From a virus: a stretch of DNA of 36,393 nucleotides. The notes under the pieces are model-generated. The model saw only the letters and a program-made list of their open reading frames with translations, did no database searches and was not told where the DNA came from. The translations under genes and the position numbers were made by a program. Below, piece after piece: positions 989-12,328 of this stretch (the first letter of the stretch is position 1; each line of letters begins with the position of its first letter). The stretch is taken from IMG/VR virus record IMGVR_UViG_3300042905_001093, positions 1 through 36,393 of that record; one strand, 5' to 3'.

Positions 989-3028
989 TCAGAGTTCAGG
1001 TCGCGGCGGCGTCTGCTCGGGCAGGCCGATCATCTTCACCGCGTCCATCGCCATGCGGGTCTGATCCATGTCAATCTTGGAAACCGTCTCGAGCGTCTTC
1101 GCCCGCGCCAGCTCGCTGTCTGCGACGGTCTTGACCACGCCTGCACGGGCCTGCGCGGCCTTGGCGAGCGCTTCCTCGGCGGCGGCCTGTAGGAACACCG
1201 CATTCGGGTCGGGCTGTGCTCCAGCCTGGGCCATCTGTGCGGCCTCCTCCTCGGTCGGCTTCACCACGCCCATCTGCACCAGCTGCTTGCGGAAGAACTC
1301 GGAAATCTCGCTCAGGCCCTCGCCTTCCATGTTCATGAGCGCCGCAGCCTGCAGCACGCGCTGTGCCTCGGGGTCTTGCGTCACGGCCATCATCTGCGTG
1401 AGGGCGCGAACCGTCGCGGCACGCTTGCTGCTCGAGGACGGGCCGACCTCGACGGCGACATCGAACTCGGCCTCTGAGAGATCGTTCTCGTGCTCGAGTT
1501 CGCCCTCGTCGTTCACCATCGGGCGCATCAGTTCGATACTCGACATCTGGCCCTGCGACCCGATGCCCTTCATCTTCCGGCCAGGCTCTGCGTACACCTC
1601 GCGGGCCATGCCGAGCCAGACCTCGCCGGCACGGCGCACGGCCTTGGCGTAGTTCGACATGTAGATGAACGTCTGCATGTCCAGGCGCTGCTGGACCATT
1701 TCGACGGCCTTGCCGCTGACGTTGGCGACGATCTTGTCGCCCTGCTCCTGATTCCCGAGGACGTCTTTCATGTCCTGCTCGGTGATCTGCAGGAGCGCCG
1801 CCATCGCGGGCGGGATCTGAGGGGACTTCGTGTAGGCCAGCGGTCCAGCAGCCTGTGCGCTGCCGTCAGGCCCCGTGATCGGGTTGATGAGCAGGTACGG
1901 GTAATTGCGCAGGTTGTCGTCCTGCCACATCACTTGGTGGCCGGCGACCTGCTCGGGGGTCAGGATGGGCTTCTCGACGCTCGAGAGCGCGGCGATCTCG
2001 GCCAGCTTCGACCGCTGCATGTTCGCCAGGCGCTGGGCGTCTTTCGCCAGCCTGACATGCCCCGCGCAGCGCTCCACGTTGTCGATGAACCAGCGGCGGC
2101 CGTAGACCGGAACGACAGGGATGTGCTTGCCGGCGATGAAACCGGAGTCCTCGAGCACCTTCGCGCCGCTCAGGACATACTTTCGCACCCGCTGACGCTT
2201 CATGCGCTTCTGTCGAACCTCGACAGAACCGACTGCCTCGAGCTGCGCCAGCATCTCATCGTCCAGCTCGCTGTCCCGGTAGCGCTCCTCCTCGCCGTCG
2301 AGGCTGCGAAATATGCGCACGGTTTCGGACACCATCTCGGCGCGGAAATACTCGGCCACGTACACGACGTCAGGCGTGAGCCAGTCAAACTCGTACTGAT
2401 GGATTTCCTTCGGCCAGCTTGCCGGGTCATCCCCGTACTCGGCCTTGTACGCCTCGCGGGTCATGCTCGTGAGCACGAAGCACCGTTTCGCGTCGGCCTT
2501 GTCCTGGCGCTTGGCCTGGAGATCGAAGAACACGCTGCTGTCCGCGTCGAAGATCGGCTCGATGCGGATGCGCTGGCGCTCGTCCTCGTCGTCCTCCTCG
2601 TTCTCGTAGGCCGTGCGCAGCCGGAACGCACCGAAACCGCCGCCGACAGCCTCCTCGAAGGCGTTGTCGTAGGCTTCCTCGGCCCCGCTGTCCTGCTCGT
2701 CGGCCCGGTACAGGTCGTCGCAGGTGTCTGCGAGTCCGTCGTATTCCTTGCCTTCCTTGGACACGAAGTCCACGGTGACGCGGTTGGCGCGGTACTCGCT
2801 GAAGATGCGCTGCACAGCCAACGCGATCTTGTTCACCTCGAGTTTCGGCTTGTTCTCGAACTGCGCCCCGAGCGGGCCTTCCCACTGCGCCCCGGCGATT
2901 GAATAAAATCGTCGGTCAGCCAAACATTGTGTTCTTTCGTCACGAAGTGCCGATTGAATATTATCAAATTCACGCATCGCCTCTTCGTGCACCTGCGCAA
3001 GTTGCTGCTCTTTAGTTGGTCTTGCCAT
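989..3028 (-). CDS. Portal protein (P22 gp1-like)
   Basis: Dodecameric ring at one capsid vertex through which DNA is packaged and ejected. The product is 680 aa against 725 aa for P22 gp1, and reads as the P22-type portal family: charged helical N-terminus, core with conserved segments around RFYSIAGAQWEG and NKIALAVQRIFSEYRANR, and a long helical C-terminus rich in Ala/Gln/Glu (barrel-like). The ATG at 3028 is preceded by AAGGA at good spacing; a longer start at 3052 lacks support. Its first 17 bases overlap the end of the HNH endonuclease gene. Roughly the first 40 codons (2900-3028) are clearly more AT-rich than the rest of the gene and match the base composition of the neighbouring endonuclease gene, suggesting this end arrived with it. 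Confidence 0.93.
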   Translation of the reverse strand: MARPTKEQQLAQVHEEAMREFDNIQSALRDERTQCLADRRFYSIAGAQWEGPLGAQFENKPKLEVNKIALAVQRIFSEYRANRVTVDFVSKEGKEYDGLADTCDDLYRADEQDSGAEEAYDNAFEEAVGGGFGAFRLRTAYENEEDDEDERQRIRIEPIFDADSSVFFDLQAKRQDKADAKRCFVLTSMTREAYKAEYGDDPASWPKEIHQYEFDWLTPDVVYVAEYFRAEMVSETVRIFRSLDGEEERYRDSELDDEMLAQLEAVGSVEVRQKRMKRQRVRKYVLSGAKVLEDSGFIAGKHIPVVPVYGRRWFIDNVERCAGHVRLAKDAQRLANMQRSKLAEIAALSSVEKPILTPEQVAGHQVMWQDDNLRNYPYLLINPITGPDGSAQAAGPLAYTKSPQIPPAMAALLQITEQDMKDVLGNQEQGDKIVANVSGKAVEMVQQRLDMQTFIYMSNYAKAVRRAGEVWLGMAREVYAEPGRKMKGIGSQGQMSSIELMRPMVNDEGELEHENDLSEAEFDVAVEVGPSSSSKRAATVRALTQMMAVTQDPEAQRVLQAAALMNMEGEGLSEISEFFRKQLVQMGVVKPTEEEAAQMAQAGAQPDPNAVFLQAAAEEALAKAAQARAGVVKTVADSELARAKTLETVSKIDMDQTRMAMDAVKMIGLPEQTPPRPEL

Positions 3029-3767
3029 TTTGCGATTCCTTACAATTGGCAAAATGCCAACGTTTCATGAGAGATTGGCCGCCTTGTTTTTTGCAATGCG
3101 GACACTCTACCTTTGGCTGCACGCCTTTTGGAACGCGTAATTTTAACTTTTGATCTTCAGTAAGTTTCTTGCCCTTGTTTGACAAAACGAAGGCTTGATA
3201 CTGTTTTTCGTTTAACTTTTTGCCCTTGTTCACGGCAAGTTTTTGTCGCAACTCAGGCGTGTAGTCTATGGCTTGCCGCGCGCGTGCCATTGCATTTTTA
3301 TGGCTCTCTGTCTTCGGCTTTCCCTTCAGTGCGTCAGACAGTTTTGCTCGTGTCTCGGCGCTTACACCTGCCGCCCTTCTGGCTGCATGCAACTTTTTTA
3401 CAGCCTGATCTGATAATTTCCGGCCGGTATTAGCAATCGAAATTTTCTTTCTGGCTTCGGTTGACAATTTCAAGCCGATTTGAGCTTCTGCTCTTTTCCT
3501 TCGTAACCACCCAAATTTTTTGTTATTGCGCCACTTGCCTTGGGTCATTCCCCATGCCGCAAAAACTAATTTTTGATTTTCTGGATGCAGTTTTACTAGC
3601 AACTGATGCGCTACGAAATGTTCCTCAGGTGTTAGCAACACAAGATTGTTTTTGTCATCACCTCCACCCATGCATTTCGGCACAACGTGGTGTCTCTCAA
3701 CGTATCCGATGATCTCTCGAGACCTCGCTCGACCGATCAGGGCTTCGTAGTGGGACTTGTAATCCAT
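3012..3767 (-). CDS. HNH homing endonuclease with NUMOD3 repeats
   Basis: Free-standing site-specific endonuclease, probably selfish. The product is 251 aa. Residues about 25-62 form the HNH fold: HHVVPKCMGGG, then NNLVLLTPEEHFVAHQLL, with the His pair and downstream Asn and His as expected metal/catalytic residues. Residues about 105-170 hold NUMOD3-like DNA-binding repeats (KISIANTGRKLS, AKLSDALKGKPKT, LAVNKGKKLNEKQ). The C-terminus has a zinc-finger-like C-P-H-C ... H-x3-C (residues about 222-243). Base composition is strikingly AT-rich compared with all neighbours, pointing to recent transfer. It sits between terL and portal, where P22-like phages have no gene, and its last codons overlap the portal start. 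The ATG at 3767 has no good ribosome site; the gap to terL is 31 bases. Confidence 0.92.
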   Translation of the reverse strand: MDYKSHYEALIGRARSREIIGYVERHHVVPKCMGGGDDKNNLVLLTPEEHFVAHQLLVKLHPENQKLVFAAWGMTQGKWRNNKKFGWLRRKRAEAQIGLKLSTEARKKISIANTGRKLSDQAVKKLHAARRAAGVSAETRAKLSDALKGKPKTESHKNAMARARQAIDYTPELRQKLAVNKGKKLNEKQYQAFVLSNKGKKLTEDQKLKLRVPKGVQPKVECPHCKKQGGQSLMKRWHFANCKESQNGKTN

Positions 3768-3798: not shown

Positions 3799-5031
3799 CT
3801 ATCGCCAGCGGTGGGCGGTGGGAAGGACGAGGCCAGGATCATGCGCAGGCCGGTTCGCCTTGGCCGCGCGGCGCGCGCCTTCGCAGGCATATCGCAGGGC
3901 GTCGATCACGTGGTTTTTCTTGTCCTGCAGCACCGGCAGCACCTTGCCAGTCAGCGGGTCGGTCTTGAAGCTGTAGTGCGTCAGCTCGTCAATCGTGTGC
4001 AGGCACCTCGGATGCACCACGATGTCGTAGGACTTGAGCCACTCGACGCCTTCCTCAACGGACTTCGGCCCCTTCACGGCTGGCATGATCTTCGGAAACC
4101 CGTGCCGGCGCATGTGGCTGATCGTCTCGGGCCTGGATGAGTCGCCAACCATCGGCCACTTCTCTGCCTCGGGCACGGTCATGAACAAGTCAGGCGTGCT
4201 CGTGATCTCGCAGCCGACCATGTACGCCTCGTGGTCGATGTACAGCGTGCGGCCGAAGATGTGGCAGCGCACAAGCACTGTCGGGTCGGTAGCGAAACCC
4301 CAGTCTGCGCCCAGCCGGTGGATCGCATCGCGCGGAGCCTCGAACTCCTCAACGCGCCAGTTCTTGAACACTCGCGCGCTGCTGTTCTGCACGTAGCCGC
4401 CGCGCCATACGTGGGCGTACTTGTCCGGGTCTCGGCCCAGGTCGTACTCCATCTCGGCCCGCAGAACGTCCGGGAACCAGGGATTCTGGTCGAAGTTCAC
4501 CTGCAGCACCACGGCATCCGGTGGCGGCTTCGGGCCGCGCAGCAGGTGATCCACTGGATCACTCGACAGATTCGGGTTCCACGTAAACCACAGCTCCGAG
4601 CCAGGCTTGCGGATCGTTGGCCGCAGCAGGTCCAGGCTGCGCTGGCTCAGGCTCTGCGCCTCCTCCACCCAGGCGCGGTCGTAGCCCTCCAGCGACTTGA
4701 TCGAGTCGGCCGTGTGGTTCTGCATGCCCTGAAAGATCAGCAGGCCATCTCCGCGCACGGACTTGATGACTGCCTCTTGAACCTCGAAGTACGCGCCCGC
4801 GTTCAGGGATTCGATCTTGAGCTCGAGCAGGCGCTTCACCGACTGGGCCAGCGACTTCTGCACCTCGCGCACGCAAACCGAGCGGCTGCTCGGGTCCATC
4901 AGGTGCGCCTCGATCATCATCTCCGCGAACGTGTGGGACTTGCCAGAACCGCGCCCGCCGTGCGCACCCTTGTACCGGGACGGCTTCAGCAGCGGCTCGG
5001 CCCAGCTGGGGGTCTGGATTCTCAGTTCCAT
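3799..5031 (-). CDS. Terminase large subunit (packaging ATPase/nuclease)
   Basis: Motor that drives genome DNA into the procapsid and cuts the concatemer. The product is 410 aa, of the PBSX/Terminase_3 type. ATPase motifs: Walker A GGRGSGKS at residues 25-32, Walker B with catalytic acid in WVEEAQ at about 121-126, and a coupling-type TWNP at about 150-153. The RNase-H-like nuclease follows, with acidic residues in GADWGF (D243), VGDSS (D297) and NHVIDALRY (D377). All motifs look intact. The ATG at 5031 lies 6 bases after the terS stop, so the two are probably translationally coupled; the ribosome site is weak. The ATPase-nuclease pair and P22-like capsid genes fit headful packaging, although large-terminase type alone does not prove it. 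Confidence 0.96.
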   Translation of the reverse strand: MELRIQTPSWAEPLLKPSRYKGAHGGRGSGKSHTFAEMMIEAHLMDPSSRSVCVREVQKSLAQSVKRLLELKIESLNAGAYFEVQEAVIKSVRGDGLLIFQGMQNHTADSIKSLEGYDRAWVEEAQSLSQRSLDLLRPTIRKPGSELWFTWNPNLSSDPVDHLLRGPKPPPDAVVLQVNFDQNPWFPDVLRAEMEYDLGRDPDKYAHVWRGGYVQNSSARVFKNWRVEEFEAPRDAIHRLGADWGFATDPTVLVRCHIFGRTLYIDHEAYMVGCEITSTPDLFMTVPEAEKWPMVGDSSRPETISHMRRHGFPKIMPAVKGPKSVEEGVEWLKSYDIVVHPRCLHTIDELTHYSFKTDPLTGKVLPVLQDKKNHVIDALRYACEGARRAAKANRPAHDPGLVLPTAHRWR

Positions 5032-5037
5032 CGTGGA

Positions 5038-5421
5038 TTACTTGACGATTTCCCGCACGATTTTCGTGATGGATTCTCCGACCTGATGCGTGGTTTCGAT
5101 TTTCTCGCCGTATTTCTTAGGCGCGAGTTTCGCGGCGCGCCATTGATATGCGCTCAATACTACGCGAGCTGCATGCGGGTCCATTTCTCCGTTTTCTACT
5201 CGCTCAGCCACGGACAGAATCTTCTCGTCCATTACCTCGGCCTGGAGTTCCCTCGCGCGCGCGCACCTGTGTGAGAAGTCCGGGTCGTCCTTCTGCCAAT
5301 CCATCACAGCCCAGATGCTCGGCATACGCTTGTCACGGCAGACGGATCGCATCGACTCGCCTTCGCTGATGCGCTTGACGATCTCGTCCATGACTTCGGG
5401 GGTCTTGCGGCTGGCTGGCAT
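5038..5421 (-). CDS. Terminase small subunit (Sf6 gp1-like)
   Basis: DNA-recognition subunit that marks where packaging starts and loads the large subunit. The product is 127 aa. Residues about 8-45 form a helix-turn-helix-like unit (ISEGESMRSVCRDKRMPSIW); the next region (RARELQAEVMDEKILSVAERV) is a helical oligomerisation segment, and RAAKLAPKKYGEKIE is the conserved element typical of Sf6-type small terminases. The start at 5421 is preceded by GGAG with 5-base spacing. The gene opens the late block and lies directly downstream of the structured region 5422-5556. In P22-like phages the packaging site lies in or near this gene; that the same holds here is inference. Confidence 0.92.
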   Translation of the reverse strand: MPASRKTPEVMDEIVKRISEGESMRSVCRDKRMPSIWAVMDWQKDDPDFSHRCARARELQAEVMDEKILSVAERVENGEMDPHAARVVLSAYQWRAAKLAPKKYGEKIETTHQVGESITKIVREIVK

Positions 5422-5449
5422 GTTTGCTCCAAAAGTTAGTGACCACTCA

Positions 5450-5467
5450 GGGGAGGGTAGGGGAGGG
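5450..5467 (+). other. G-quadruplex motif made of two tandem 10-mers
   Basis: Four G-runs (4, 3, 4 and 3 Gs) are separated by loops of 1, 2 and 1 bases, which satisfies the usual G3+N1-7 quadruplex pattern. It arises from two tandem copies of GGGGAGGGT plus A or C. The other arm of the inverted repeat, at 5530-5543, offers three G-runs on the minus strand. Folding is inferred from sequence only. Confidence 0.7.
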
Positions 5468-5487
5468 TCATCCTATTCCACGGGTAT

Positions 5488-5507
5488 CGCGTGCGCGTGC
5501 GCGTGTG
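5488..5507. other. Alternating purine-pyrimidine tract (Z-DNA-prone)
   Basis: Twenty bases alternate strictly C/T with G (CGCGTGCGCG then TGCGCGTGTG). Such tracts favour left-handed DNA under negative supercoiling. The tract sits in the spacer between the inverted-repeat arms. Whether it has a role is unknown; low-complexity drift in an intergenic region is possible. Confidence 0.5.
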
Positions 5508-5556
5508 ACGTATGAAACCGAACAAGTATCCCCTACCCTCCCCTAAACCGAAAATG

Positions 5557-7860
5557 TTAGGGTAAACCCTGATTTCTGGCCTTTTCCGTTGCGTTCAGGT
5601 CGATGCCCTTCAGAGTCATGATCCCGGACATCTTAACCTTGCGCAGCCCAGAAACCAGGGTCATCTTCTCGCCCCACACCGTCTGCGAAGGCTCGTGCTC
5701 GCCGCGAGACTGCTTCCAGCGCCTGAACGATGCGTAGAGGTCTGACGATCTGGCGTGCGTTCCTGCGTCGATTTTGCAGCACTCCTCGATCCACATTGCG
5801 ATGTCCTCGACCTTACCTGGGATGGCTAGTCCGTCTGCATACCACTTGCGTGCGCCCTCAATCGCCCAGGCCATGATCCCAGGCGCTTCGGCTTTCAGCT
5901 TCTCGGGCAGCTTGGCATCCTTGGCTGCGCCTTCGAATTTCTGCAGAAACGGCAGCAGCACCATGCGACGAGCCATCGCAGGGTCTCCACCCTTCAAGCG
6001 CGGCTTGTGGTTCCCGGCGATCAGGTGCTTGTGCGACATCGTGAACGTGAAGTTGTCCTGACGCATGAACCGAGCCGTTAGCGTCTCGTCCCCGGTGAGT
6101 TCCTTAATCCGCGCCTCGGCCCAGAAACTGCCCTCCTCGAGCTCGTTGCTGACAGCTAGGCGCTTGCCGTGAAGCTGGGCAAGTTCGGTCGGATGCCGCT
6201 CGTTCCTGCTCGCCATCAGCGCAGTGGTTGGCAGTTTAAGGGCGTAAGAGCCCATCATCCACATGAGAATGTCGAGCAGCGTAGATTTTCCGTTACTGCC
6301 CTGACCGTGCGCGAAAAACAGTTTCTGCTCGCGTCTGTCGCCGGACAGACAATACCCACACATCCTCTGCACAAACTCTATTGTATCAATATCGTCTGCG
6401 AACACTTGTGATATGAACCGGAGCCAGTTCTCTGTCGGTTGCTGAGTATCTGGAGATACCCGAGAAATCTGCGTCAGATACTGCCCACGATTACGCTCGT
6501 GGAGTTTGCCGGTGCGTAGATCAACGATCCCTGCCGGGGTGTTGATCATCAGCGGATCGCTGTCCCACTGAGCGGCCGGAACCACGATAGCCGGGTCAGA
6601 CTGCGCTAGGAACAGAAGCGCGTTGACGGTCTTTGCGCTGGTAATGGCCTTGCGGATTTTCGCGTCGGCAAGCTGCGCTGATGCACGAGCGGTGCGCCTA
6701 GCAAGGTCGAACCGAATCAGGTGTTCGTCTCGCTTCCAGTGTGTGCCATCATCGTGCATCCAGCCAAGGCCTGGAGACCACCTCAAGCCGGCCCCGTACT
6801 GCGCAACGAACTCCAGCGCAAGCGAGTCGTCCGAGAACTCGGGCGGCAGTGCTTCGACCTCTCCGGTCTCGGGGTCGATGATTTCGGTGGCTTGTGGCGG
6901 TGCGGGCAGGGCCGGTGGCGTTCGCGTGGCGACCGGAGCCCACACCGATGCCCGATTAATCGCCCAGGCCCTGAAGTCCTGCCACGAACTAAATCCCGCG
7001 TCGGCCGCATCCGATCCGTCAGGCTGGCCCGATACGTCCAGCACCTTGACCTCGGCCGCATCCCCGGCGATGATCTGTGCCACACGTTGCATGGCCTTTT
7101 TGCCAGGCTCATCTGCGTCCGGCCACAAGAGCACCTTGCGTCCCTTGAGCGGCGTCCAATCGGCTTTGTCCACCGCCATCGCGCCTGCGGGCCATGTGAC
7201 CACCGCATAAGGCGTGGCAAACCCACGCGCGGCGTCTGCGGCTTTCTCTCCCTCGACCACCAGCACGGCGGCATTGGGACGAGCCGCGAGTTCCTGCAGC
7301 CCGTACAGCGGCCTCGGCGCGGGCCACTGGCCCATGCCCCAGGCGTCTCCGTCCCATGTCCAAGGGATGATCTGCTTTCGGTCGCCTGCAGGGTCGTAAC
7401 GTGCGACGTAGCCCAGCACCTCGCCGTTGCCGTCGAAGTACGTCCAGCGGTGCGATGGCTGCCCGAATCGCGGATGCACACAGGCGCAGTCTGCGATGGC
7501 TTCCGGGACCGGCGTCACGACGCGCCGAGCTGGTTCCGAAGGCGGCGGCGGTCGGTGCGTTCCGTTGACGCTAGCAGCCGGCTTGGATTCCCCGCCGAGC
7601 TGCTTGTAGGCGTCGCCCATCTGCAGGCCGTGGATGGCCGCGTACAGACTGATTAGGTCGCTGCCGTGGTCGCCCGTGGCGAAGTCCGACCATGCGCCGT
7701 TGGACAGGTTGATCTTGAGCGACTGACCGGAAGCCCCGCTTAGGTCTCCAGCCACCCATGCGGTTCCGCGTTTGCGGCCTCCGGGTAGCCAGGATGCGAG
7801 GTGAGATTCAGCCGATGCGAGCAGTTGACGGGCCAGGCCGTCGAAGTCGAGGCCGGCCAT
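5557..7860 (-). CDS. Primase-helicase (TOPRIM + SF3/D5-type helicase)
   Basis: Replication protein that unwinds DNA and probably makes primers. The product is 767 aa. The N-terminus (residues 1-90) contains the conserved phage segment around LSNGAWSDFATGDHGSDLISLYAAI but no classic CHC2 zinc cysteines. TOPRIM: VVEGEK at 201-206 (acid E203) and LLWPDADEPG with D248/D250. A linker rich in Pro (about 310-345) leads to a D5_N-like region. SF3 helicase: Walker A HGQGSNGKS at about 518-526, Walker B-like KRLAVSNELEEG at about 566-577, and MARRM at about 629-633 as probable arginine finger. The start ATG at 7860 follows the 78-aa gene by 2 bases. It is the last gene of the leftward early operon. All core motifs look intact. 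Confidence 0.94.
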   Translation of the reverse strand: MAGLDFDGLARQLLASAESHLASWLPGGRKRGTAWVAGDLSGASGQSLKINLSNGAWSDFATGDHGSDLISLYAAIHGLQMGDAYKQLGGESKPAASVNGTHRPPPPSEPARRVVTPVPEAIADCACVHPRFGQPSHRWTYFDGNGEVLGYVARYDPAGDRKQIIPWTWDGDAWGMGQWPAPRPLYGLQELAARPNAAVLVVEGEKAADAARGFATPYAVVTWPAGAMAVDKADWTPLKGRKVLLWPDADEPGKKAMQRVAQIIAGDAAEVKVLDVSGQPDGSDAADAGFSSWQDFRAWAINRASVWAPVATRTPPALPAPPQATEIIDPETGEVEALPPEFSDDSLALEFVAQYGAGLRWSPGLGWMHDDGTHWKRDEHLIRFDLARRTARASAQLADAKIRKAITSAKTVNALLFLAQSDPAIVVPAAQWDSDPLMINTPAGIVDLRTGKLHERNRGQYLTQISRVSPDTQQPTENWLRFISQVFADDIDTIEFVQRMCGYCLSGDRREQKLFFAHGQGSNGKSTLLDILMWMMGSYALKLPTTALMASRNERHPTELAQLHGKRLAVSNELEEGSFWAEARIKELTGDETLTARFMRQDNFTFTMSHKHLIAGNHKPRLKGGDPAMARRMVLLPFLQKFEGAAKDAKLPEKLKAEAPGIMAWAIEGARKWYADGLAIPGKVEDIAMWIEECCKIDAGTHARSSDLYASFRRWKQSRGEHEPSQTVWGEKMTLVSGLRKVKMSGIMTLKGIDLNATEKARNQGLP

Positions 7861-10211: not shown

Positions 10212-11020
10212 GCGAGATGCTCCGCGATACGCCGACCGATCCACCGCACCACCGGCACCGCCCAGGAGTTGCCGAGGGCCTTGTAGCGCGGGCCGTCGGG
10301 GCACTCGCTTGCGGGCTTCTTGCGCCACGGGATGGCGGTGTAGCCGTCAGGGAAACCTTGCAAGCGCTCGCACTCGACGGGGGTTAGGCGGCGCACTTGC
10401 ATGGACACAGGTGGCAGCACGCACGCACCCTCGCCGCCGGCATCACGGCGCAGGCAGTTTGCAAGGTCATCGCCAACCTTGGGAGTCGTGTCGTCTTGGA
10501 CGAAGACCGCCGCCGTCGCACACCCTTGCCCGTTGCCGGTGCCGATGGCGTGGCAAACATCGGTGTTGCTGATCGGGTCTTGGGTGGGGTGGAAGGCGAT
10601 GTAGTTCTGCTGCTGCGCGCCAGCATCAGCTGCCAGCGCGCCGACCACCTGACCGTCGCCGCCGATCTGACGCACCTCGCTGCGGCTGTTCTGAGTGAAC
10701 GCCACCGCCACCCCCTGCGTAGCGTGCGTGTCCACGGTGTACGCCGTTCCGTCGTCGTTCCATCCGCGCCCGTTCTGGGCCTTGTTCATGGCGCGAACGT
10801 CCTGCAGTGCCACCGGCTGCATCACCACCGCGTGCTCCGCATTCGATCTTGCCAGCGTGTGGCACGGGTCACCGGGCTCGCGCGACTGCCGATTTACGGG
10901 CGCGGTGATGTTGAAGAAGTCGTAGGTGACCGGCTGCATCACCGCCGTCGTCGTGCTGTTCTCCACGCCGCTCGGGATGCGAGCGCGCAGGCTGCTGGAT
11001 AGGTCGGTGAGGCTCGCCAC
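10208..11020 (-). CDS. DNA cytosine methyltransferase, C-terminal part (out of frame)
   Basis: This frame carries the variable target-recognition region and the last conserved C5-methyltransferase motifs: RRLTPVECERLQGFPDGYT (motif IX) and RYKALGNSWAVPVVRWIGRRI (motif X). It continues the upstream frame if one G is removed from the G8 run at 11126-11133; the joined protein would be about 603 aa and would read smoothly through the junction (NAGGQRRLDAESETL). A GTG at 11020 could start a separate product, but nothing suggests an independent gene. The stop overlaps the VRR-NUC start. Confidence 0.8.
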   Translation of the reverse strand: MASLTDLSSSLRARIPSGVENSTTTAVMQPVTYDFFNITAPVNRQSREPGDPCHTLARSNAEHAVVMQPVALQDVRAMNKAQNGRGWNDDGTAYTVDTHATQGVAVAFTQNSRSEVRQIGGDGQVVGALAADAGAQQQNYIAFHPTQDPISNTDVCHAIGTGNGQGCATAAVFVQDDTTPKVGDDLANCLRRDAGGEGACVLPPVSMQVRRLTPVECERLQGFPDGYTAIPWRKKPASECPDGPRYKALGNSWAVPVVRWIGRRIAEHLA

Positions 11021-12020
11021 GCTGGCTGTGCCATCTGTGCCGTGGAGGGTGATGCCGACAGGCCCATCGAAGCCGCCCCCGATGGTAGGAATCAGCGTCT
11101 CCGATTCCGCATCCAGCCGCCGCTGCCCCCCCCGCGTTGAGGCACATGGAAACGACGGCGTGCTGGTCTACGCAGTTCTGCGTATACGCCACATCAGCAA
11201 GCACCTCACCATGCTGCGGCCCGGCTTCTGGCTTTCTGCCGATGGCGGCGCCCTTGATGCACCATGTCTGCTGAATTACTCCTCCGTCGCAGTCAAAGTC
11301 GGTTCCGAGGCCGCCGCCTGCAGTGCTGCGTGAAGGGATGGTGGGAGCGACTTTCCCCGCTTCTCTGCTCGGCGCAGAATCCCGGCGCACGCCGTCGAAC
11401 TCAAGAAGAACCGCTGCGGGATCGAACCCGTCTCGAGCACTTGCGACAACGAACACACGCTTGCGTCGTTGGGCCAGGCCGAAATATTGGGCATCCAAGA
11501 CGCGCCAGGCAACTGTTCTTTCGGGTCCAGCAACCACACCCGCGTCGGTCCACCCGGTCGCGGCCAGCGGGTCGATGGGGGTATCGCATCCAGCAAGCGC
11601 GGAGATGAAGCATCCGAAGGCGTTGTCGCGGGTTGAAAGGACTCCGGGCACGTTTTCCCAGAAGACGATGCACTCTGGTTCGCCTCGGGTTCGTCGAACA
11701 TCATCAATTGCATTTGCGATCTCGCAGAAGGTGAGCGACAGGTTTCCCCGCGCGTCGTCAAGGGACCGGCGCAGGCCGGCAACGCTGAAGGCTTGGCAGG
11801 GCGTGCCGCCGCAGAACACATCAGGTGCTTCGACCTCACCCAACCGGATGCGCGCTGGCAGCGTGGTCATGTCGCCCAGGTTTGGCACCTCTGGGTAGTG
11901 GTGGGCCAGCACCGCCGATGGGAACGGCTCAATTTCAGCCAGCCACGCCGCACGCCAACCAAGCGGATGCCACGCCACGCTGGCGGCTTCGATGCCGCTG
12001 CATACGCTGCCGAATCTCAC
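10869..12020 (-). CDS. DNA C5-cytosine methyltransferase, N-terminal catalytic part
   Basis: Transfers a methyl group from S-adenosylmethionine to C5 of cytosine. Motif I FGSVCSGIEA (residues 3-12), motif IV with catalytic Cys in GGTPCQAF (C75), motif VI ENVPG (122-126) and motif VIII QRRKRVFVV (184-192) are all intact. In the window sequence the frame shifts at a run of eight Gs (coding strand, 11133-11126, about residue 297), after which it reads non-homologous sequence and stops at 10869; motifs IX and X lie in the other frame. The start GTG at 12020 has GGGAGG 6 bases upstream and overlaps the regulator stop (GTGA). It may be a sequencing error, a phase-variable gene or a true loss. Probable roles are protection from host restriction or marking phage DNA. 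Confidence 0.88.
   Translation of the reverse strand: MRFGSVCSGIEAASVAWHPLGWRAAWLAEIEPFPSAVLAHHYPEVPNLGDMTTLPARIRLGEVEAPDVFCGGTPCQAFSVAGLRRSLDDARGNLSLTFCEIANAIDDVRRTRGEPECIVFWENVPGVLSTRDNAFGCFISALAGCDTPIDPLAATGWTDAGVVAGPERTVAWRVLDAQYFGLAQRRKRVFVVASARDGFDPAAVLLEFDGVRRDSAPSREAGKVAPTIPSRSTAGGGLGTDFDCDGGVIQQTWCIKGAAIGRKPEAGPQHGEVLADVAYTQNCVDQHAVVSMCLNAGGAAAAGCGIGDADSYHRGRLRWACRHHPPRHRWHSQRGEPHRPIQQPARSHPERRGEQHDDGGDAAGHLRLLQHHRARKSAVARAR
11126..11133 (-). repeat. G8 homopolymer within the methyltransferase gene
   Basis: Eight consecutive Gs on the coding strand (eight Cs on the plus strand). With seven Gs the two methyltransferase frames join. Such tracts slip during replication and are also error-prone in sequencing, so the length in the population is the key question. 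Confidence 0.9.
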
Positions 12021-12238
12021 CGATGGCCTCCCACAAACGCCACCGTCAGAAACACCCCAGCGTGCTGCAGTTTCACTAGCGCCGGGATGCCCCGCCTCCT
12101 CCAGTTCGCCACCCGCTGCGGGCCGCCGGCACCGAAACCGAGCCGTCGCGCCAGCGCAGTCGGGCCGCCGAGGTTGTCGATGATTTCGGAGTCGGGGTGC
12201 AGGCTCAGGCTGTGAGCCAGTGGGGGTGATATCGTCAT
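12017..12238 (-). CDS. Cro/YdaS-type small DNA-binding regulator
   Basis: Likely transcription regulator. The product is 73 aa from the ATG at 12238. Residues about 20-65 hold the YdaS/Cro-like helix-turn-helix: EIIDNLGGPTALARRLGF, then PQRVANWRRRGIPALVKLQ, where the WRRRGIP segment is characteristic. A GTG 18 bases upstream gives an alternative start; neither has a good ribosome site, so it may be translated from a short or leaderless transcript. It is the first gene of the leftward operon and faces the rightward promoter containing a perfect palindrome at 12337-12353, its obvious candidate target. No CI-type partner is visible anywhere in the window. It overlaps the methyltransferase start by 3 bases. 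Confidence 0.85.
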   Translation of the reverse strand: MTISPPLAHSLSLHPDSEIIDNLGGPTALARRLGFGAGGPQRVANWRRRGIPALVKLQHAGVFLTVAFVGGHR

Positions 12239-12328
12239 GGGATACGACTGTAACACGGCGTGGATACGGATGGGAAGGGGTCGGCGCAGAGAGTCGCATA
12301 AATCCCTGCGATTCTGTCGGAATAGGGG

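Follow-up and report, generated by a model that had tools for sequence, protein, structure and literature searches.

The DNA analysed here, a linear IMG/VR record of 36,393 nucleotides (hereafter the window), contains a 135-bp gap at 5422-5556 between the stop codon of a primase-helicase gene (ORF 5557..7860, minus strand) and the ATG of terS (ORF 5038..5421, minus strand). Read as transcribed, this strand carries first the primase-helicase gene (7860..5557), then the 135-bp gap, terS (5421..5038, Sf6-type) and terL (5031..3799). The gap thus adjoins terS and then terL, in agreement with an earlier sequence-only reading that had placed the element directly before the packaging genes, and both terminase genes are neighbours outside the unit described below. 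A homing-endonuclease-like gene (3012-3767, minus strand) lies between terL and the portal gene, and a related locus, L051, is collinear with the window on either side of this gene and ~700 bp shorter there. Compared as DNA with known phages, the first 20 kb gave a single match, a cytosine-5 methylase gene (10869-12299, minus strand), which is 71-89% identical to Pseudomonas, Vibrio and Morganella phages.

Short iterons form two arrays in the gap, one on either side of a spacer. Array 1, which is proximal to terS (5449..5468, plus strand), consists of two exact tandem copies of AGGGGAGGGT and is kept in relatives as CCCTCCCCTANNCTCCCCT on the minus strand. Array 2, which is proximal to the helicase gene and inverted (5529..5545, minus strand), reads AGGGGAGGGTAGGGGA, comprises one and a half copies of the AGGGGAGGGT unit and begins ~12 nt past the helicase stop codon. 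The arms of the resulting inverted repeat (5449-5464 and 5529-5544) are 64 nt apart; they had been described as a perfect repeat of 15 bp, and they are indeed perfect but measure 16 bp. This is the longest spaced inverted repeat in the 36-kb window, with a runner-up of 12 bp, and the longest one never exceeded 14 bp in 100 local shuffles of the whole window. The four-run G-quadruplex motif previously recognised in the tandem repeat units was located at 5450-5467, inside array 1, and is the only one on both strands of the window, while the opposite arm has three runs. Among elements of the D5 kind, the G-runs per arm range from three to four. Since homologous arrays such as GTTCTACAC are built from repeats without G-runs, the G-quadruplex was rejected as a conserved feature.

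The spacer between the arrays (5469..5528; 64 nt between the 16-bp arms), presumably the unwinding region, has a GC content of 56%, versus 64% for the window and 15% for the equivalent spacer of the Streptococcus satellite Javan561. Alignment of relatives revealed that its most conserved core (5482..5514, from ATACGTCAC to CGCACGCGATACCC on the minus strand) contains an alternating purine-pyrimidine, Z-prone tract of CG/CA composition (5488..5507, CGCGTGCGCGTGCGCGTGTG). This 20-nt tract, seen where the earlier reading had placed it within the spacer, is the only alternating purine-pyrimidine run of at least 14 nt in the window. The accompanying claim that the combination is unlikely to occur by chance held for the repeat length and for the position of the tract, which arose in 0 of 500 shuffles of the spacer itself, but not for the tract length alone, which is not extreme for a GC-rich genome (4 of 200 local shuffles reached it somewhere in 36 kb). 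Comparable tracts occur in the spacers of phages AcaML1 and BPP-1, of Javan561 and of loci L026, L063 and L127 (0-1 of 500 spacer shuffles) and are absent from some families, so the alternating tract is recurrent but not general.

The primase-helicase encoded beside the gap, the presumed initiator, matched the Pfam families D5_N (1.6e-23) and DUF5906 (6.7e-12) and has a weakly DUF6371-like N-terminal part. Its helicase core matched by sequence the DNA primase of PDB entry 7ola (E 3.5e-7), which we take to be a SaPI-type enzyme. The AlphaFold model of the whole helicase was too poor for use (pLDDT 41). The last 89 residues (5560..5826, minus strand), presumed to bind the iterons, were predicted as a winged helix with a pLDDT of 88. 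The predicted fold matched DNA-bound RFX (8zjr, Z 10.4; 1dp7, Z 9.6), the origin-binding domain of P4 (1ka8, Z 8.2, rmsd 3.2 over 81) and, with a Z similar to that of the P4 match, the C-terminal part of the ASFV primase-helicase. The window helicase is without 11 residues near residue 686 (~5803 on the plus strand) that are present in relatives, among them a contig with TerS and TerL identical to those of the window. Genome contigs were also searched; they offered no usable relative for this helicase, and a Comamonas MAG contained one partial relative of VapE type.

To relate the repeats to the genes around them, relatives were collected by TerS, by helicase and by further helicases met on the way, and ~48 non-redundant loci were cross-tabulated. 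Repeats were scored by inverted alignment, because a statistic based on 8-mers with one mismatch was of low power where repeats are G-rich. These loci fall into five kinds by helicase domain, with the Pfam labels D5_N/DUF5906, VapE-like and DUF3987; each kind is joined to both toprim-like and Prim-Pol N-terminal parts, and different TerS genes stand behind them. The repeats are AGGGGAGGG for D5, AGGGACACT for VapE-1, GTTCTACAC for VapE-2, TGGCACA for D5b and CAACAAAGTCAAC for DUF3987. The repeat kind matched the helicase kind in 47 of 48 loci, whichever primase domain or TerS was present, and repeats of a foreign helicase kind were found in none of the ~48. The exception, L026, carries diverged G-rich repeats and a helicase domain that is 76% identical. 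At the level of sequence, the repeat arrays are therefore strictly associated with the helicase domain, with the reservation that five independent repeat kinds represent few independent events, within which both primase kinds and several TerS kinds recur. Further, an unbiased scan of IMG/VR with the exact 16-bp arm as query returned 34 stretches. A D5 helicase domain abuts in every stretch where the arm has an inverted partner (0-2 mismatches, offset exactly 80), and the stretches with a lone match have no abutting D5 helicase gene, except L171 (on the same contig as L029), where the partner lies beyond the end of the fetched DNA.

The gap is very likely an initiator-specific iteron origin of replication, recognised by the primase-helicase encoded just upstream, as judged from these comparisons and the predicted fold. 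An origin-linked structure had been among the guesses of the sequence-only reading, and this guess has gained strong support, although the function itself is deduced; in relatives, the element follows the 3' end of the upstream primase-helicase gene. By analogy with SaPI Rep (PMC7581432) and PICI replicons (PMC6092414), we propose a mechanism that builds on arrays, geometry, position, helicase association and unit exchange read from the sequences and on a winged-helix fold that is predicted. The C-terminal winged helix of the D5-type primase-helicase would bind the AGGGGAGGGT repeats, and the oppositely oriented arrays would seat two helicase assemblies face to face across the ~60-bp spacer. 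The spacer, including its flexible, Z-prone CG/CA tract, would then be opened, perhaps by melting, allowing the helicases to load and to travel in opposite directions, with synthesis primed by the N-terminal primase part.

Known replication systems offer several parallels. SaPI Rep recognises an ori directly downstream of its own gene via its C-terminal domain (PMC7581432), and the PICI pri-rep-ori supports plasmid replication (PMC6092414). As in the window, the SaPI/PICI pri-rep-ori site lies immediately 3' of a D5/VapE-type primase-helicase gene and has two sets of short iterons flanking a spacer (PMC6092414; PMC7581432), and recognition is attributed to the C-terminal domain of the helicase, for the window on the basis of co-segregation and the predicted fold. 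In contrast, the SaPI/PICI origin spacer is AT-rich, whereas that of the window is GC-rich with alternating purines and pyrimidines; moreover, PICIs are satellites without a full head and packaging set, whereas the window belongs to a tailed phage encoding TerL, portal, major head and head-closure proteins. In SCCmec, the C-terminal domain of the D5-related helicase Cch2 likewise binds direct repeats that lie a short way past the cch2 gene (PMC7581432), as presumed for the window, but this system differs in having three 5-nt iterons, in that direct rather than inverted repeats matter for binding, and in its separate primase-polymerase (PMC7581432). Iteron plasmid origins of the RepA/RepE type also combine initiator-specific tandem repeats with an adjacent melting region, as presumed here, but the presumed initiator of the window is itself a helicase-primase and no DnaA box was found near the element. 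The P4 alpha protein, compared here by fold match alone, likewise joins a primase to a helicase and ends in an RFX-like winged helix, which in P4 is the origin-binding domain. The ori and crr repeats of P4 and their layout differ from the window element.

Several observations count against an origin: the spacer is GC-rich, a pattern search found no DnaA box or IHF consensus within ~600 bp of the element (for DnaA, none across 4800-6300), the GC skew does not clearly change direction there, and some relatives show no clear array in the flank searched. The co-segregation of repeats and helicase is also what one would expect if the helicase bound these repeats for a purpose other than origin function. 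In one such reading, its C-terminal domain would use them for control (autoregulation, copy control or incompatibility), with the true origin elsewhere. In L026 (2646-2882), L029 (6559-7032) and L030 (6594-7067), a small gene directly after the arrays encodes a stand-alone homologue of the winged-helix domain with 27-41% identity, a candidate replication repressor or array-binding competitor, and such a repressor would be in keeping with a control site. However, an operator would not require paired inverted arrays with a conserved unusual spacer, no promoter-like site accompanies the array, which is 3' of the gene, and the equivalent place in SaPI, PICI and SCCmec is a demonstrated or proposed origin. 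We therefore regard a control site as improbable. The late control element suggested earlier received no positive support, as no promoter-like or terminator-like site was found.

The two arms might instead form a structured RNA, a terminator or a cruciform. Indeed, the single strand folds better than its shuffles (z about -4.2), an excess explained by the inverted repeat alone. Compensatory changes in the arms, which the earlier reading had proposed to look for, did not appear: across eight relatives, none of the 16 pairs showed a two-sided change, and pairs were broken without repair, one of them in 5 of the 8. The repeat units are nearly invariant in these eight homologous D5 elements, and the lack of covariation between the arms favours separate repeats bound by protein over a hairpin or cruciform. 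In addition, the tandem repetition within each arm would be superfluous in a stem; there was no Rfam match and no terminator-like site, and a tRNA search found none. A structural role of this kind is thus very improbable.

A packaging (pac/cos) site recognised by TerS, the first guess of the sequence-only reading, would suit an element lying directly before terS in a phage whose TerS and TerL are Sf6-type. It is contradicted by the relatives, in which the element is not inherited together with either TerS or TerL. Loci L004-L006, whose TerS and TerL are 94-96% and 96-99% identical to those of the window, have a different helicase, and the repeats behind it are of the unrelated AGGGACACT kind in the same inverted layout. 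Conversely, L023 and L024 combine a window-type helicase and element with other downstream genes and a distant TerL, and no such TerS lies close by. We consider a packaging site hardly credible.

Pairwise DNA comparison further placed the borders of exchange between such cassettes. Between L131 and L058, 91% similarity extends to a point 1246 or 1285 nt ahead of the stop codon, is lost across the helicase domain and arrays, and returns at +216 or +186. L063 and L042 follow the same pattern, with both pairs sharing ~88-91% identical primase DNA to about -1250 and resuming at about +170 to +215. L061 (VapE-1) and L023 (D5) have 3.4 kb in common, starting just past arrays of different kinds, and the common DNA of L065 and L067, both D5, ends together with the array, at +107/+105. 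The left border corresponds to the linker between the primase and helicase domains; in the window helicase, residues ~320-345 form such a linker of the EIIDPETGEVE / EIIDASTGEIT type, common to both cassette kinds. At the right-hand border, unrelated cassettes join shared downstream DNA at the motif AGTGGTCACTAAC (5435..5447, minus strand), which is also found there in L004, L023, L063 and L135, before different genes, and which may be a recombination border or an operator. As DNA similarity is interrupted at the junction of primase and helicase domains and once more just past the second array, the helicase domain and array move as one unit; related phages appear to swap the helicase domain, or "starter", together with its start site as a single cassette. 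That the whole element is only a recombination border between phage modules, as the exchange borders at its edge and the short shared motif there might suggest, is scarcely believable, since AGTGGTCACTAAC lies outside the arrays, and the arrays, being part of the exchanged unit and different from cassette to cassette, cannot be the shared homology.

The layout of the putative origin recurs in other phages and in a satellite. In Acidithiobacillus phage AcaML1, it follows a 35%-identical helicase, with the repeat GGTCTGACG and a spacer containing CGTACACGCGCGCGCGCGTA; in Acinetobacter phage 4316, it has the repeat TAGTGACGT and, as in the window, stands before terS. The same layout occurs behind a distantly related helicase in NatCom_21982 and, with the repeat TTACTACAC, in Javan561, while in Bordetella phage BPP-1 the arrays lie ~400 bp downstream of the helicase gene (TTTGCCTCG, 22-bp perfect arms). 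The inverted-alignment scores exceeded those of all 40 shuffles in these five. About half of the 18 named-phage relatives sampled had no clear array in the 3' flank searched, which means that the rule is not universal, and several of these have a DNA polymerase I or methylase gene beside the helicase. VapE-type cassettes (L042-L062, L050, L086 and L113) have a conserved CTAAGTTGTTGATT-like motif just past the helicase stop codon; read in reverse complement, this motif agrees with the IHF consensus WATCAANNNNTTR, and it has no counterpart in the window element.

A literature search found no account of this layout in phages, and an earlier description in subscription journals is possible. Across D5, VapE and DUF3987 helicases, tailed phages may carry their origin at the 3' end of the helicase gene, as an inverted pair of iteron arrays, with "helicase domain plus arrays" as a cassette swapped independently of primase and terminase, and with a Z-prone tract replacing the AT-rich unwinding element in the window family; we offer this generalization tentatively, as having somewhat less than an even chance. 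A further question is how a spacer that is GC-rich and alternating would open; its tract may melt, flip to Z-DNA or merely bend. The five natural helicase-repeat pairs make the specificity of initiator for origin directly testable. These data place the layout in ordinary tailed phages, among them the laboratory phage BPP-1 as well as AcaML1 and Acinetobacter phage 4316, and would provide a sequence-based rule by which origins can be located wherever a phage encodes a D5/VapE-type primase-helicase.
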